DNA of 64,000 nt from Microbacterium sp. GCS4 (GTDB lineage Bacteria; Actinomycetota; Actinomycetes; Actinomycetales; Microbacteriaceae), in assembly GCF_001262495.1 (NCBI RefSeq), contig NZ_LGYE01000006.1, forward strand, positions 124,001 to 188,000. The letters run 5' to 3'. The translations under genes and the position numbers were made by a program. Positions 54,497-61,931 of the stretch are shown here, piece after piece. The notes below the pieces were generated by a model, which ran no database searches, was not told where the DNA came from, and saw only the letters and a list, made by a program, of their open reading frames with translations. Position 1 is the first letter of the stretch. Every line of letters starts with the position of its first letter.

Positions 54497-57400
54497 TCAG
54501 TCGGTCGCCCTCCTCCGTGGCCGGACGATCAGGAGACCACCCGCTGCGAGGAGGACGGCGGCCCCGCCGATTCCGATCCACGGCACCTCGCCTCCCGTGG
54601 CCGGGAGCGAGCCGCCTGCCGTCGCCCGTGCGACGGTGACCGTCACGCGGGCGGTGACCCTCGTCCCGTTGACGTCCGCGACCGAGTAGGTGATCGAGGC
54701 GCGGCCGGAGAAGTCCGGGTCCGGCGTGAAGACGATCCTGCCGGACACGACTCGCCACTCGCCCTCTCCAGGGACGTCGAGTGTCAGCACGAGCGCACCG
54801 TCCGGACCCACGATCCGCAGGGAGGCGGGATCCAGGGCCGCGCCGCCGGTTCCCGGGGTGTCGTCGCCGAGCACGTCGATCACGACCGGCACGCCCGACG
54901 ACGTCCGGGCGACGTTGTCGCGCGCGATCGGGTCGTCGCCGACCACCGTGACGGTCAGAGTGGACGCGGCCGCGTTGCCCAGGGAATCCGTCGCGGCGTA
55001 CCGCACGGGTGACGCGGAGCCCGTGAACGTCGGCAGCGGGGTGAAGGTCACCCGGCCATCGGCGTCGATCGCGTACGCCCCTTGGCCGGAGACCTCGATC
55101 GTCTTGCCGTCGGCCCCGAGCACGGCGCCGTCCGGCTGCCCGTCCGGCGGGAACACGACCGAAGCCGGATCGAACTCCGCAGCCGAGCCGTCGGCGCGCT
55201 GACCGGGGGTGTCGTTGCGGAGCACGTCGACCGTGACGGGGACGTTGCGCGACGTGCGTTCGGCGTCGGCCACCCCGATGGGTCCAGGTCGCACGGTGAC
55301 GCCGATGGCCGCGGTCCCGGCGGTGCCGTTCGCGTCGCGGATCGTGTAGCGCACGGGCGTGGTCGGACCGCTGAATCCGGCGGCGGGCGTGAACAGGACG
55401 GTGCCGTCGGCACCGAGCGAGTAGACGCCCTCGCCCGCGATCTCGACGGTCTTGCCGTCGTCGCGGATCTCGGCGGTGACGCCGGCGGGGAGGTCGGCGG
55501 CCTCGAAGGTCGCGGAGGTCGGATCGAGCGGAACGGACGGGTCGCCCGCGGTGTCGTTACCGATGATGTCGATCGTCACGGCGGTCGCGAACGCCGTGGT
55601 CGCATCGTCGTCGGCGGCGGTCGGCGTCACGGGGTCGACGGTCACGCGGATCGTCGAGGTCACCGCGTTGCCGACCGCGTCGGATGCCGAGTAGCTCACG
55701 GTGCTCGCGCGGCCCCGGAACTCGGGGAGCGGCGTGAATGTGACCGTGCCGTCGGCCGCGGCGACGTAGAAGCCCTCGTTCGGAACGACCAGGCGGCGCC
55801 CGTCGTCAAGGAGCACGGAACCCGGCGGCTGCCCCTCGGAGGGGAACCGGAGGGTCGCGGGATTCCAGGCTCCCTCCGACCCGTCGGCGTTGCGCGACGG
55901 CACGTCGTTGGCGAGCGGGCTCAGGGCGACGGCGACGCCCTGCGGCGTCGTGATCGTGTCGCGCTCGGCGGTCGGTCCCGGGCGGACGGTGACCATCAGC
56001 CGGGCGTCGGCCGTCGTGCCGTTCGCGTCGACGACGCGGTAGGTGACGGGCGTCGTGGTGCCGCTGTAGCCGGCCTCGGGGGTGAAGACGGCTGCACCGG
56101 TGGCGTCGAGAACGTACGTGCCCTGGCCTGGGACCGTGAGCGTCTTCCCGTCTGCGGAGACCGTGGCTCCCTCCGGCTGCCCCGTCGTGGGGAACGTCGT
56201 CTGCGCGGGGACCAGCGGCGCCGAATCGGCTCCGGCGCGATCGTTGGCGAGCAGATCCACCGTCACCGGGGTGCCGAAGGTCGTGGCGGCCCGATCGTCT
56301 GCGGCGACCGGGGTGATCGCGTCGACGACCACCATGATGGTCGACGACACCGGAGCGCCATGGCTGTCGAGGGCCGAGTAGACCACGGGTGTGCTCACGC
56401 CCGTGAACGCGGGCTCCGGGACGAAGGTCACGGCCCCGGTCGTCGGGTTCACCGTGTAGACGCCTTCGCCGGGCATGGTGATCGTGCGCCCGTCGGCGGA
56501 GACGACGGCGCCCGCCGGCTGTCCCTCTGTCGGGAAGGTCACGCTGGTGGGGACCATGGTCCCCGTGTCGCATCCCTGCGGAACATCGGTCTGCCCCGGG
56601 TCGCAGGGCGCGCCCAGGTCGCTCGCGTGATCGTTGCCCAGGACGTCGATCTCCACGGGGGTGTTCTGCGGCACGCCGGCAGAGTCGGGCGCGGCGATGG
56701 CGCGACTCCCGACCATGACCTCGATCGTGGCGGTCGTCGGCGTGCCGTTGGTGTCGGAGACCCGATACTCGACGGGGGTCGCCCGACCGGTGAAGTCCTC
56801 GTCGGGCACGAAGCGCACCGAGCCGTCGCGGATCGTGTACGTGCCCTCGCCCTCGACCACGAGCGTCTTCCCGCCGTCGGTCGCATCCGGCGAGGTGAAC
56901 ACCATGGTCGATGCGACGAGCGGCGCGTCCGGCGCACCCGGGATGTCGTTGGCGAGCGCATCGATGACGACCGGCACATCGCCGGGGGTCTTCGCGGCAT
57001 CGCCGGTCGCGACGGGGACCACCGCGGTGACGGACACGGAGATCGTCGACGACGCGGGGTTGCCGAACGCGTCGGTCACCGAGTAGGTCACCGGCGTCGC
57101 CGCGCCCGTGAACTGCGGCTCGGGGTCGAACGTCACGCGCCCCGTGGCCGGGTCGAACGTGTACACGCCCTCGCCGGGCACCGTCAGCACGCGACCGTCG
57201 GCGGTCGCCGCGCTGCCGGCGGGAAGCGCGGGCGTCACGACGAAGCGCACGGAGTCGCGGTCGAATCCTTCGCCGGGCCCGTTCGGCCCCTCGCCCGGGA
57301 CGTCGTTGTCGAGGATCGGGATGACGACGTCGACGTTCTGGTCGGTCGTGGCGGCGTCGGTGTTGGCCACCGGCCCCGGGAGCACGGTGACCGAGACGGT

Positions 57401-59593
57401 GGCCGTCGCCTGCTGGCCGCTCGGGTCGGTGGCGCTGTACGGCGCCGTCGCCGTCCCCGCGAAACCCGGCGCGGGCCGGAACTCGACCTCGCCGCCGTCG
57501 GTCACGAGCCATTCGCCCTGCGCGGTGACGAGCCGTCGGCCGCCGTCGGTGGCGGCCGGGTCCGTGAAGACCACGGATGCCGGGTCGAGCGCCCCGCCGG
57601 GACCGGGCTCGTCGTTCGCGAGCACGCCCACTGTGACCGGCGTCGCCTGCGCGGTGCGCGCGGCGTCGTCGACCCCGACCGGGGGCTGCCCGGCCACCGT
57701 CACCTGGATCTGCGCGGTCGCCGCGTTGCCGGTGCTGTCGGTGAAGCCGTAGGCGACGGGAGTCGTCGTCCCGGTGAAGGTCGCGGCGGGAGCGAAGGTC
57801 ACCGCTCCGGTGGCGGGATCGATCGTGTACACGCCCTCGCCGGGCACCGTGAGCCGTCGCCCATCGGCGCTAACGGTCGCTCCCGCCGGCTGCCCCGCGG
57901 TCGGGAAGACCACGGATCCCGGCGGGATCGTGCCCGCCGTCCCGTCGGCGTTCTGCCCGGCGGCGTCGTTGTCGAGCACGGGGATCCGCACCTGCTGGCC
58001 CTGCGTGGTCGCAGCGGTGTCGGCCGCGGCCGCGGGCCCGGGTCGGATCGTCGCGGTGAGCGTGGCGGTCGATTCCAATCCGTTGGCGTCGACCACGCGG
58101 TACTCGGTCACGGCATCGCCGGTGAAGCCCGGCGCGGGGGTGAAGGTCGCGCGCCCCTCGGCATCCAGGGTCCAGACGCCCTGCGGCGTCTCGAGGCGGC
58201 GGCCGCCGTCGGTCGCGTCGGGCGAGGTGAAGACGGTCAGCTCGGGCGCGAGGGGCGCGCCACCCGCCTGGTCGTCGGTCGCGCCGTCCAGTACGACGGG
58301 GGCGCCGAACACGCCGGACGCCGTATCCGGGGTGGCGGTCGGCCCGCGGACCACGTTCGTGAAGGCGCAGACGATGTTGATGCCGTCCGTGCCGGTCGGA
58401 GCCGTGAACGTCGCCGTGTTGCCCGTACCGCTCGAGATGGTCGCGCCGTCGCCGTCCGTGCACACCCAGGTCGTGTCGTACATTCCGAGATCGGTCGTGC
58501 CGAGGCCCTGCTGGGTCGCCGTGTAGGTCTCGCCGGGGATGATCAGGCCCGCATCGCTGTCGGCGCCGCCGTTGTCGGTCGGCCTGGTCGCCGGGAAGTC
58601 GGGGCTGGTGCCGTTCGCGCCGTAGGAGCCGCCCTCGAGGATGATGCGCACCGCGTCGGTCGGCCGGGCGCGCGGTCCGTCGAACTCGGCCATGACCTCG
58701 GCCGACGAGGGGTTCGCGCAGCTGCCCAGGTCGTTGCTCGTGACCGTGCCGAACGAGCGCGGTGCGCCGACGGGAGCGCCGGTGATCGGATTGGCCTTCT
58801 GCAGAGTCGAGACGCCGCCGATGTAGAGGAACCCGTCGGATCCGAAGGCGACGCCGTTGGGGGCTGCGGTGACCGGGCTCCGGGAGATCTCCTGCGAGGT
58901 GAGGACCGTTCCGGTCCCCGAGGTCGGCACGACGCCGTTCGCGACGAAGAGCGCGGAGGTGGTGGGGTTGCCGTTGAGCAGGAAGAGTCGGCCGAGCTTG
59001 TCGAACGCGATGTCGCCGTTGGTCCCCGGCGGGTTGGTGAGCGTCACGGACACCACGGGACCTGCTGGCGATGCCCCCGTGACGGGATCGTGCACGTACA
59101 GGCTCAGCGTCGCTCCGCTGTAGGCGCCGTAGTAGTGCAGGCCCGTGAGGGGGTTGATCGCGCCGACGGTTCCGGTCGGAATGGGGCCGGCCTTGCGCGA
59201 GGTGGTGAGGGTTCCCGCCTCGCTCGCAGCGGGCGTGAACTTGCCGATGCCGGCGGTGCCCACGACGATCGCGTACGAGCCGTCCGCGCCGATGCCGAGC
59301 TGGTTGATCGCCGAGCCGACCCCGCTGTTCGTCGTGAAGACCGGCGTGGGGTCGATCGCTCCCGTGGTGAGGTTCATCCGTCGGACGTTGCTGGCCGCAG
59401 AGCTGGCGATGTACACCGTGTTGTTGCAGGAGAGCGGGGCGGCGGCGCTGGCGGGAGTCGGAGCGGAACCGATCACCAGGCCGGCGGCCAGCATGACCCC
59501 GGCAGCCATCATCGAGACGGCGCGGGCGACCAGCGGACGACCGCGCTCCAGCGCGGTGACCCGCTCGGTCGACAGCGATGCTCCGCCGTTCAT
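54497..59593 (-). CDS. LPXTG-anchored fibrillar surface protein with eleven CshA-type repeats
   Basis: A 1698-residue secreted protein. Signal peptide ending ASAAAP near residue 52; a propeller-like region to about 310 (YIASSAASNVRRMNLTTGAI, PITGAPVG blades); a SpaA/DUF11-like domain to about 415 with paired Cys; then eleven modules of about 105-120 residues of the CshA fibril type (VLANDxPG..., VPGEGVYTxDPATGxVTFxP, FTGxxTPVxYxVxD); then LPATG (1663-1667, at 54593-54607), membrane span and RPRRRATD tail for sortase. Modules alternate between a DANGT type and a DxxGN type. Likely a stalk or adhesin. GGGGAGAG precedes the ATG. No sortase gene is in the window. Confidence 0.88.
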   Translation of the reverse strand: MNGGASLSTERVTALERGRPLVARAVSMMAAGVMLAAGLVIGSAPTPASAAAPLSCNNTVYIASSAASNVRRMNLTTGAIDPTPVFTTNSGVGSAINQLGIGADGSYAIVVGTAGIGKFTPAASEAGTLTTSRKAGPIPTGTVGAINPLTGLHYYGAYSGATLSLYVHDPVTGASPAGPVVSVTLTNPPGTNGDIAFDKLGRLFLLNGNPTTSALFVANGVVPTSGTGTVLTSQEISRSPVTAAPNGVAFGSDGFLYIGGVSTLQKANPITGAPVGAPRSFGTVTSNDLGSCANPSSAEVMAEFDGPRARPTDAVRIILEGGSYGANGTSPDFPATRPTDNGGADSDAGLIIPGETYTATQQGLGTTDLGMYDTTWVCTDGDGATISSGTGNTATFTAPTGTDGINIVCAFTNVVRGPTATPDTASGVFGAPVVLDGATDDQAGGAPLAPELTVFTSPDATDGGRRLETPQGVWTLDAEGRATFTPAPGFTGDAVTEYRVVDANGLESTATLTATIRPGPAAAADTAATTQGQQVRIPVLDNDAAGQNADGTAGTIPPGSVVFPTAGQPAGATVSADGRRLTVPGEGVYTIDPATGAVTFAPAATFTGTTTPVAYGFTDSTGNAATAQIQVTVAGQPPVGVDDAARTAQATPVTVGVLANDEPGPGGALDPASVVFTDPAATDGGRRLVTAQGEWLVTDGGEVEFRPAPGFAGTATAPYSATDPSGQQATATVSVTVLPGPVANTDAATTDQNVDVVIPILDNDVPGEGPNGPGEGFDRDSVRFVVTPALPAGSAATADGRVLTVPGEGVYTFDPATGRVTFDPEPQFTGAATPVTYSVTDAFGNPASSTISVSVTAVVPVATGDAAKTPGDVPVVIDALANDIPGAPDAPLVASTMVFTSPDATDGGKTLVVEGEGTYTIRDGSVRFVPDEDFTGRATPVEYRVSDTNGTPTTATIEVMVGSRAIAAPDSAGVPQNTPVEIDVLGNDHASDLGAPCDPGQTDVPQGCDTGTMVPTSVTFPTEGQPAGAVVSADGRTITMPGEGVYTVNPTTGAVTFVPEPAFTGVSTPVVYSALDSHGAPVSSTIMVVVDAITPVAADDRAATTFGTPVTVDLLANDRAGADSAPLVPAQTTFPTTGQPEGATVSADGKTLTVPGQGTYVLDATGAAVFTPEAGYSGTTTPVTYRVVDANGTTADARLMVTVRPGPTAERDTITTPQGVAVALSPLANDVPSRNADGSEGAWNPATLRFPSEGQPPGSVLLDDGRRLVVPNEGFYVAAADGTVTFTPLPEFRGRASTVSYSASDAVGNAVTSTIRVTVDPVTPTAADDDATTAFATAVTIDIIGNDTAGDPSVPLDPTSATFEAADLPAGVTAEIRDDGKTVEIAGEGVYSLGADGTVLFTPAAGFSGPTTPVRYTIRDANGTAGTAAIGVTVRPGPIGVADAERTSRNVPVTVDVLRNDTPGQRADGSAAEFDPASVVFPPDGQPDGAVLGADGKTIEVSGQGAYAIDADGRVTFTPLPTFTGSASPVRYAATDSLGNAAASTLTVTVVGDDPIARDNVARTSSGVPVVIDVLGDDTPGTGGAALDPASLRIVGPDGALVLTLDVPGEGEWRVVSGRIVFTPDPDFSGRASITYSVADVNGTRVTARVTVTVARATAGGSLPATGGEVPWIGIGGAAVLLAAGGLLIVRPRRRATD
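54625..58345 (-). repeat. Array of eleven CshA-type module-coding repeats, A/B alternating
   Basis: Each module spans 310-360 bp. Modules 1, 3, 5, 7, 9 and 11 (A) have LDPAS-type starts and DANG/DTNG/DVNG before the last strand; modules 2, 4, 6, 8 and 10 (B) have longer starts (NADGSEG, PNGPGEG) and DSTGN, DAFGN, DAVGN or DSLGN. The unit of duplication is therefore an A-B pair of about 225 residues, repeated five and a half times. Confidence 0.75.
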
Positions 59594-60101: not shown

Positions 60102-60449
60102 ATGGCCGACCTCGTCCCGTTCCCCCGCAGCCCCCGGACGCGCCCGAGCGATCCCGAGCCCCTGTGGCGCCACCTCCTCGGCGATCAGCTGCGCCGACGT
60201 CGGCACGAACGCGACGAGACGCTCAGCGAGACTGCGGCGAGCGCCGGCGTCTCGCCGCAGTACCTCTCCGAGGTCGAACGCGGCCTCAAGGAGCCGTCGA
60301 GCGAGATGATCGCCGCGATCGCCGGCGCGCTCGACACCTCGCTGATCGAGCTCACGAGCGCGGTCGCCGACGACCTGCGGGCGGCCGCGGCACCGGCATC
60401 CGCCTCCGCCTCCGCCTCGGCGACCGGCGCGTTCGCCCTCGCCGCCTGA
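60102..60449 (+). CDS. XRE family regulator, ClgR-like
   Basis: A 115-residue protein: 25 leading residues, then a helix-turn-helix at about 28-85 (LRRRRHERDETLSETAASAGVSPQYLSEVERGLKEPSSEMIAAIAGALD). SPQYLSEVERGLKEPSSE is the hallmark of ClgR-type activators of clp protease genes. The tail is Ala/Ser-rich (ASASASASATGAFALAA), ending in AA as ClpP substrates do; ClgR itself is degraded by ClpP in other actinobacteria. The gene faces the clpP pair end-to-end (7 nt between stops), supporting a link. Confidence 0.82.
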   Translation: MADLVPFPRSPRTRPSDPEPLWRHLLGDQLRRRRHERDETLSETAASAGVSPQYLSEVERGLKEPSSEMIAAIAGALDTSLIELTSAVADDLRAAAAPASASASASATGAFALAA

Positions 60450-60456
60450 GCCGGCC

Positions 60457-61050
60457 TCAGAGCATCCGCTCCCCCAGCACCGTGTCGACGAGTCCGTAGT
60501 CGAGAGCCGCGGATGCCGTGAACACGCGATCCCGGTCGGTGTCGGCGCGCAGCTCCTCGACCGTGCGCCCGCTGTGCCTCGCGAGGATCGACTCCATGTC
60601 GGAACGCACCCGCACGACCTCGTCGGCCGCGAGGATCAGGTCGGGGATCGCCCCGCGCGACTGGCCGGCCGGCTGATGCAGCACGATCCGTGCATGCGTC
60701 AGAGCCGAGCGCTGACCGGACGCCCCGGCCGCGACCAGCAGAGCCGCGGGGCCGATCGCCTGCCCCACGCACGTCGTCGCGATCTCCGGACGCACGTGCT
60801 GCATGGTGTCGTAGATCGCGAGAGCCGCACCCGGATCGCCGCCCTCGCTGTTGACGTACAGCTGCACGGGCGACTCAGGGGCATCGGCGTCGAGGTGCAG
60901 CAGCTGTGCGATCAGCGCGTTCGCGACCCCGGCGTCGATGCCGGTGCCGAGGTATATCACGCGCTCCGCGAGCAGGTGCGAGTACACGTCCATGACCCGC
61001 TCCCCGCGCGGATGCTGCGCGATCACGTTCGGGATCGTGTAGCTGCTCAT
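60457..61050 (-). CDS. ClpP-like protein without catalytic serine
   Basis: A 197-residue ClpP homologue. The frame follows ClpP throughout: RVIYLGTGIDAGVANALIAQLLHLD, LYVNSEGGDPGAALAIYDTM, IVLHQPAGQ (catalytic His kept) and DRDRVFTASAALDYGLVD (Asp region kept). At the nucleophile elbow, active ClpP has GQAASMG; here it reads GQAIGPA, so Ser is Gly. It should be an inactive subunit, perhaps structural in a mixed ring with the active ClpP encoded directly upstream. Its start overlaps that gene's stop (ATGA). Confidence 0.88.
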   Translation of the reverse strand: MSSYTIPNVIAQHPRGERVMDVYSHLLAERVIYLGTGIDAGVANALIAQLLHLDADAPESPVQLYVNSEGGDPGAALAIYDTMQHVRPEIATTCVGQAIGPAALLVAAGASGQRSALTHARIVLHQPAGQSRGAIPDLILAADEVVRVRSDMESILARHSGRTVEELRADTDRDRVFTASAALDYGLVDTVLGERML

Positions 61051-61661
61051 GACCCGACCCCCAGTCCGACCCGCGACCGTCGCTTGGGCATGAGGTCGAC
61101 GACCCCGTCGACGATGTCGTCGATGAATCCGTACTCCTGAGCCTGAACCGCGGTGTACCAGCGGTCGTGCAGCGAGTCCTCGAAGATGCGCTCGCGCGGT
61201 TGGCCGGTGTCGTGGGCGATGAGTCCGAGCACGGTGTCGCGCATGTGCCGGAGGTCGTCGGCCTGCGTCTCGATCTCGACCGCGGAGCCCCCGATGCCCG
61301 CGGACCCCTGATGCATGAGGATGCGCGCGTGCGGGAGCGCCCTCCGCTTGCCCCGCGCGCCGGCCGACAGCAGGAACTGCCCGGCGCTGCATGCGAGTCC
61401 GAGCGCGAGGGTCGACACGTCGTTGGGCACGAGGGTCATGAGGTCGCGGATCGCGAGCATGGCGGGCACCGAGCCGCCCGGCGAGTGGATCCACAGCGAG
61501 ATGTCGGTGGTCGGGTCCTCGGCCGACAGTGTCAGCAGCTGCGTCATGAGCAGCGTGCCGTTGTCGTCGTCGAGGGCGCCGTCGAGCACGAGCACGCGCT
61601 CGTGGAACAGCGCGCGCCGGGCCTCGGGCCCGAACTGCGGAATGGGGTTGTCTTCGCTCAT
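61047..61661 (-). CDS. clpP: ATP-dependent Clp protease proteolytic subunit
   Basis: A 204-residue ClpP with a full triad: Ser in GLACSAGQFLLSAG (GxxCS variant of GQAAS), His in ILMHQGSAG, and Asp in the DSLHDRWYTAVQAQEYGFID block. The N-terminus QFGPEARRALFHERVLVLDGALDDDN is shorter than the processed classical ClpP propeptide forms. ClpP rings degrade proteins handed over by ClpX or ClpC. It is coupled to the serine-less paralogue downstream. This pair is separate from the usual clpP1P2-clpX locus, which is not in the window. Confidence 0.9.
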   Translation of the reverse strand: MSEDNPIPQFGPEARRALFHERVLVLDGALDDDNGTLLMTQLLTLSAEDPTTDISLWIHSPGGSVPAMLAIRDLMTLVPNDVSTLALGLACSAGQFLLSAGARGKRRALPHARILMHQGSAGIGGSAVEIETQADDLRHMRDTVLGLIAHDTGQPRERIFEDSLHDRWYTAVQAQEYGFIDDIVDGVVDLMPKRRSRVGLGVGS

Positions 61662-61931
61662 GGCCCCAGCATCCGCCGCCGTCGCGGAATGCGGGCGGGA
61701 ATCCGCCGGGGGCGGATCCGCCCAGGGCAGAGCCGTCTCATTCCGCACCCGCACCGCACGCGCGTCGCGGGGGTCGCACGTTCCGCAGGAGATCTCTCGA
61801 CCCGCAGGATCGGTCGCCGCATCCGCTCCTGCAGATCGTGCGATCTCCTGCAGTATGAGGACCGGAGGGATGCCGCGATCCTTCTCGTGCGCGTAACATC
61901 GCCGACTCACGGCGGACGTAGCCTCGACCGC

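Follow-up and report, generated by a model that had tools for sequence, protein, structure and literature searches.

A clpP3-clpP4-popR module in Microbacterium sp. GCS4 whose ClpP4 lacks the catalytic serine, and its probable role as a backup Clp core

Main finding

The stretch of Microbacterium sp. GCS4 DNA analysed here (64,000 nucleotides, referred to as the window) carries two adjoining clpP genes and a convergent regulator gene which, judging from sequence, constitute a clpP3-clpP4-popR module of the kind known from Streptomyces. In one of the two subunits, ClpP4, the catalytic serine is replaced by glycine. The pair probably serves as a backup Clp core built of both subunits, in which ClpP3 cuts, ClpP4 docks, and PopR acts as a switch governed by the housekeeping ClpP1P2. 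The module as such is already known; the more surprising point is how widely the ClpP4 active site has been lost.

Organization of the locus

The features of the locus, in window positions, are as follows.

60102..60449, + strand: popR-like gene P0003, 115 aa, with a helix-turn-helix, a variable Ala/Ser-rich linker and a C-terminal LAA
60438..60446, + strand: Leu-Ala-Ala codons ending P0003, a putative ClpXP degron
60457..61050, - strand: clpP4-like gene P0001, 197 aa, whose product has a ClpP fold but lacks the catalytic Ser
60529..60531, - strand: catalytic Asp174 of P0001, kept
60676..60678, - strand: catalytic His125 of P0001, kept
60751..60753, - strand: Gly100 codon GGC at the nucleophile position of P0001
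61047..61661, - strand: clpP3-like gene P0002, 204 aa, with intact Ser92-His117-Asp166
61702..61731, - strand: predicted PopR operator, TCTGCC-CTG-GGCGGATCCGCC-CCC-GGCGGA

The clpP genes share 4 bp at their junction (61047-61050), and 7 bp lie between the end of the convergent popR-like gene and the clpP4 stop codon. Both clpP products belong to PF00574 (ClpP), with scores of 202.6 and 178.2 bits for a cut-off of 20.2. The nucleophile region reads GQAIGPA in P0001 and GLACSAG in P0002, and at the triad positions, which we take to be the equivalents of E. coli Ser97, His122 and Asp171, the former has Gly100-His125-Asp174 and the latter Ser92-His117-Asp166, in agreement with the initial annotation, which had described a clpP pair with one Ser-less subunit at this place. 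Comparison with ClpP structures, a check that the same annotation had proposed, bears out the fold: the model of P0001 (pLDDT 89.6, pTM 0.84) matched the first five solved ClpP chains in Foldseek with TMq of 0.92-0.95, and among the best PDB matches of P0002 are many chains labelled as ClpP subunit 1. The pair was also said to sit apart from the standard clpP1P2-clpX locus, with the proviso that the genome might hold no other clpP genes. It holds four in all, the other two being on contig C5, with clpX about 4.7 kb beyond them, which constitutes a separate clpP1P2-clpX locus.

On the other side of popR, at 54497-59593 of the window (- strand), there is a protein of 1698 residues that has a signal-like N-terminus, a C-terminal membrane anchor and many repeats that look Ig/cadherin-like by eye. 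A PHROGs scan returned phage head proteases, generic regulators and other families, and nothing useful for the locus.

The regulator and its operator

The regulator had been described as ClgR-like. A ClgR paralogue does stand beside the pair, but by sequence it is of PopR type and distinct from ClgR. P0003 scored 66.3 bits against the ClgR family NF041677 (NCBIfam), short of the curated cut-off of 170, and because of this score together with the presence of the published PopR operator the locus was assigned to the clpP3-clpP4-popR module. P0003 and the regulator found in the Streptomyces fungicidicus module share 59% identity across 49 aa; the nearest homologue of P0003 elsewhere in its own genome reaches 43% identity (E 1.7e-11), and the ClgR-like homologue elsewhere in that genome does not end in Ala-Ala. 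Strong homologues of P0003 (E 5e-35 or better) were found in all ten tested members of the genus that have the pair, and in neither of the two tested members without it (best E 7e-12).

A review gives the PopR operator of S. lividans as TCTGCC-3N-GGCGAATCTGCC-3N-GGCAGA (PMC9775585). The site in the window departs from it at 3 of the 24 specified bases, is self-complementary at 24 of 30 positions and lies 40 bp upstream of the clpP3 start codon; it is the only site with three or fewer mismatches in the 3.65 Mb genome, and shuffles of the window give none. The best upstream match has at most 7 mismatches out of 24 in 144 of 204 genomes (own included), compared with 0/204 for single mononucleotide shuffles of the same regions and 2/41 for the regions upstream of the main clpP1, which reach 7 mismatches. 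The remaining 60/204 regions, with 8 or more mismatches, are no better than shuffles. For Streptomyces we used the best 80 of 544 confirmed relatives of S. fungicidicus ClpP4, a sample hence close to S. fungicidicus, and 72 of these 80 loci have an operator with three or fewer mismatches.

Of the neighbouring regulators, 162/173 end in Ala-Ala and 146/173 in LAA, and the residues before the tail are variable; among the best 80 of 544 Streptomyces relatives the regulator ends in Ala-Ala in 75. Such a tail is plausibly a degron, as the initial annotation had supposed. The self-limiting circuit that it built on this tail fits less well than a backup switch under the control of ClpP1P2, because in Streptomyces it is the housekeeping ClpP1P2 that is reported to degrade PopR, while PopR activates clpP3P4 and ClpP3P4 acts as a backup (PMC9765437, PMC12607617). 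In S. lividans lacking clpP1P2, viability is reported to depend on clpP3 clpP4 (PMC9765437).

Distribution and gene order of the module

A ClpP4-type protein was found in 111/394 genomes sampled from the class, counting rows of at least 294 bits and taking the rows that follow, which start at 280 bits, as housekeeping ClpP2. In the order it was found in 89/297 sampled genomes (E no higher than 1e-54). Within the genus the pair is patchy (24/59 genomes, own included). The collected set comprises 207 genomes with a ClpP4-type subunit, covering 23 family codes and 62 genus codes. Related genomes were searched for the same three genes, as suggested at the outset: clpP3, clpP4 and then popR downstream on the opposite strand occur in this order in 171/207 genomes, own included, as well as in 80/80 Streptomyces loci (best 80 of 544 relatives). 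Among the rest, popR was not found on the examined stretch in 34, is otherwise placed in one, and one lacks clpP3 there. For nine of these 34 genomes, all from the genus, popR lies 1.4 to 7.7 kb past clpP4, again on the other strand, and eight of the nine distant products end in LAA. In two members of the genus (L023 and L356) a gene resembling a LigD polymerase domain by eye lies between clpP4 and popR. The coupling of the two clpP genes is nearly invariant, clpP4 following a clpP3 in 206/207 genomes.

Four of the collected loci (L195, L213, L217 and L219) have no popR on the stretch, 9 or 10 operator mismatches and intact triads, and may not be true ClpP4. On four further records filed as plasmids (L220-L223, from Streptomyces fungicidicus, Tsukamurella, Prescottella and Embleya) the clpP3-clpP4-popR module is present, and the module may therefore be mobile.

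Loss of the active site in ClpP4

The catalytic triad of ClpP4-type proteins is intact in 79/207 and not intact in 128/207, or in 128/203 when the four doubtful loci are left aside. Serine is kept in 103 of the 207 (missing in 104), histidine in 175 and aspartate in 168. Its partner is nearly always complete: the ClpP3 triad is intact in 205/206, the remaining one having a gap at Asp, and the housekeeping proteins have intact triads in 41/41 (main ClpP2) and 40/41 (main ClpP1). The odd main ClpP1 (L330, genome G073) has Leu at the catalytic His, unlike the other 40; the ClpP4 of that genome (f16/g16) reads Ala-Thr-Glu at the triad positions.

The residue that is lost differs among lineages. 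In Streptomyces ClpP4 (best 80 of 544 relatives) the histidine is replaced in 80/80, by Gly in 79 and Ala in 1, with Ser kept and Asp present in 80/80; the accompanying ClpP3 (best 80 of 544 loci) reads Ser-His-Asp in 78, with one unaligned position in each of the other two. The 16 genomes of code f37 have a ClpP4 with the same Streptomyces-like Ser-Gly pattern. On the tree, triad integrity requires at least 9 or 10 changes, the latter estimate going with 7 independent pairs on branches marked by a star, and a losses-only count gives 16; the corresponding numbers for Ser are 6 or 7, and 13 when only losses are counted. Parsimony cannot separate gain from loss here, and several branches of the tree are weak, that of the window's own genus having a support of 0.447. 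Nevertheless, well-supported clades carry distinct changes, namely Glu (0.994), Trp (0.968), Ala in f14/g24 (1.0) and His to Gly in f37 (0.999). Thus, as far as these alignments and trees indicate, the losses are lineage-clustered and several are independent, and we do not claim a number. Since 79/207 ClpP4 proteins keep the full triad, its loss appears to be permitted rather than required, and inactivity is no rule of the family.

In the raw table, ClpP3 proteins with Ser-Ala-Gly and His-Gln-Gly accompany a broken ClpP4 triad in 93 cases and an intact one in 8. Of the 7 independent pairs that the tree offers, only 0 to 2 are informative, and no claim of co-change is made.

Docking residues and division of labour

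In a tree of 76 proteins a single branch with a support of 100 splits ClpP3 and the main ClpP1 from ClpP4 and the main ClpP2, although ClpP4 alone is not one clade. Three pocket positions were compared, which we take to be E. coli Tyr60, Tyr62 and Phe82. They were matched by spacing to residues mutated in PMC9765437. ClpP4 has Tyr at the second position in 204/207 and Phe, Tyr or His at the third in 207/207, and in its N-terminal strand Pro7 is kept in 207/207 and Val9 in 206/207. The main ClpP1 has aromatics at the first position in 40/41 and at the second and third in 41/41. ClpP3, by comparison, has Phe, Tyr or Trp at the first position in only 6/206 and at the third in 24/206; because the second-position aromatic remains in 160/206, its pocket loss appears partial, with two of the three residues mostly lost. 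The ClpP4 of the window has His, not Phe or Tyr, at the third position, and this is a weak point of assigning it a predicted docking role.

What such a split might mean is suggested by Streptomyces ClpP1P2, in which the published Ser and pocket mutants were made (in that complex, not in ClpP3P4). There ClpP2 S131A is reported to be fully active and ClpP1 S113A to abolish activity, and all three unfoldases dock via the ClpP2 pocket (PMC9765437). By analogy, since ClpP4 is prone to lose its cutting residues and keeps its docking residues, and ClpP3 keeps its cutting residues and has mostly lost two of the three pocket residues, we infer that P0001 and P0002 would form an obligate mixed core. The ClpP1-like ClpP3 (P0002) would be the source of all proteolytic sites, and the ClpP2-like ClpP4 (P0001), without a nucleophile, would provide the face on which the unfoldase docks. 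The control of this core would likewise follow Streptomyces physiology, on which its backup role rests: with ClpP1P2 working, PopR would be fed in by its LAA tail and the operon would stay off, and with ClpP1P2 failing or blocked, PopR would accumulate, bind the palindromic operator and turn on clpP3 and clpP4.

A different use of an inactive subunit would be as a poison or brake, mixing into the housekeeping ClpP1P2 rings and lowering or redirecting their activity rather than serving ClpP3. Streptomyces offers a precedent in ClpP-ADEP, a ClpP paralogue reported to disrupt ClpP1 complexes (PMC12607617), and the position of ClpP4 on the ClpP2 side of the tree is in keeping with it. However, clpP4 almost always follows a clpP3 and overlaps it in the window, the two subunits show complementary residue losses and equal constraint, and the 79 intact ClpP4 triads would not be expected of a brake. 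We consider this reading unlikely.

Selection and remaining alternatives

It is very unlikely that ClpP4 still cuts via another residue or a nucleophile borrowed from its neighbour. The more frequent retention of His and Asp than of Ser could be read in this way, yet both may be structural, Streptomyces ClpP4 has lost the His instead (best 80 of 544 relatives), and the residues that replace Ser (Ala 53, Gly 34, Glu 11, Trp 4, Phe 1, Thr 1) are, but for the one Thr, non-nucleophilic.

In the 23 genus genomes that carry all four clpP genes, the median dN/dS is 0.210 for the Ser-less clpP4 and 0.212 for clpP3, compared with 0.111 for the main clpP1 and 0.130 for the main clpP2. Constraint on clpP4 equals that on its partner, and both evolve faster than the housekeeping pair. 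That clpP4 is drifting to a pseudogene and clpP3 working alone is hardly credible in this light, even though more than one lineage has lost the triad and many genomes of the genus have no module (it is present in 24/59). Moreover, the glycine at the nucleophile position has been retained in the genus through all four synonymous GGN codons, the predicted fold and docking residues of ClpP4 are retained, clpP3 itself is mostly without two of the three pocket residues, and the single TGA in two genus copies of clpP4 is the normal stop codon.

The initial annotation had allowed that the glycine might be a lone sequencing change, with close homologues keeping Ser. As 25/26 ClpP4-type proteins of the genus are without Ser and their Gly codons differ, with nothing found in favour of it, a sequencing error or lone mutation is practically negligible as an explanation. 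The sole member of the genus with Ser (L022, genome G026) encodes it by TCG, from which every GGN codon is two or more steps away.

Relation to known systems

The closest known system is the clpP3-clpP4-popR module of Streptomyces, studied in S. lividans, which has the same gene order, convergent regulator, operator and Ala-Ala end and a separate clpP1P2. The sequence compared was that of S. fungicidicus, with identities of 56% for ClpP4 and 50% for ClpP3. The difference lies in the residue lost, Ser to Gly in the window, whereas the Streptomyces ClpP4 keeps Ser and has lost His (best 80 of 544). As for solved structures, the best matches among PDB chains are at most 218.4 bits for S. fungicidicus ClpP4 and at most 234.3 bits for its ClpP3, and we take it from these scores that neither is likely to have a structure of its own sequence. 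In the main text of PMC9765437 and PMC12607617 the passages that name ClpP4 or the pair never mention a missing residue. A literature search, weak in that the founding S. lividans papers (2000, 2002, 2011) lay outside it, returned no statement of an incomplete ClpP4 triad or of an inactive actinomycete ClpP paralogue.

The housekeeping ClpP1P2 of Streptomyces and mycobacteria likewise combines two dissimilar ClpPs; it differs in that both triads are full (ClpP2 41/41, ClpP1 40/41) and the pocket aromatics of ClpP1 are kept. The ClpR proteins of cyanobacteria and plastids form, as far as is known, a separate lineage. In Streptomyces ClpP1P2 one subunit cuts and the other docks (PMC9765437), and in the ClpP3/R core an inactive ClpP-like subunit sits inside an active mixed core (PMC4673316). 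Going by this published description, cyanobacterial ClpR appears to be the nearest working analogue of ClpP4; in actinomycetes, by contrast, residues were lost separately on several occasions in a single operon-linked family. Listeria likewise has two ClpPs, and its ClpP1 carries Asn in place of the triad Asp, but this subunit is reported to become active once paired (PMC9765437), whereas the ClpP4 of the window is without the nucleophile itself.

Implications

ClpP3P4 is reported to be insensitive to acyldepsipeptides (PMC12607617), and a change of ClpP1 Tyr76 to Ser impairs drug binding (PMC9765437). At the position matched by spacing to this Tyr76, ClpP3 has Ala, Ser or Thr in 172/206 and an aromatic in 6/206, and the residue at this putative position may explain the insensitivity. 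A broader interpretation, which we offer only tentatively, is that ClpP3P4 could be a split, drug-hardened backup: ClpP3 would have shed the pocket residues through which acyldepsipeptides act on ClpP1, and ClpP4 would repeatedly have shed active-site residues on which covalent inhibitors depend, each subunit thereby missing one of the two targets of natural-product inhibitors in ClpP1P2. PopR would then sense the poisoning of ClpP, and ClpP4 would be the actinomycete equivalent of ClpR, with several origins. If ClpP4 is indeed docking-only, ClpP3P4 would be a natural experiment on the number of active sites that a Clp core requires, as separate genes would carry the two tasks of cutting and docking.
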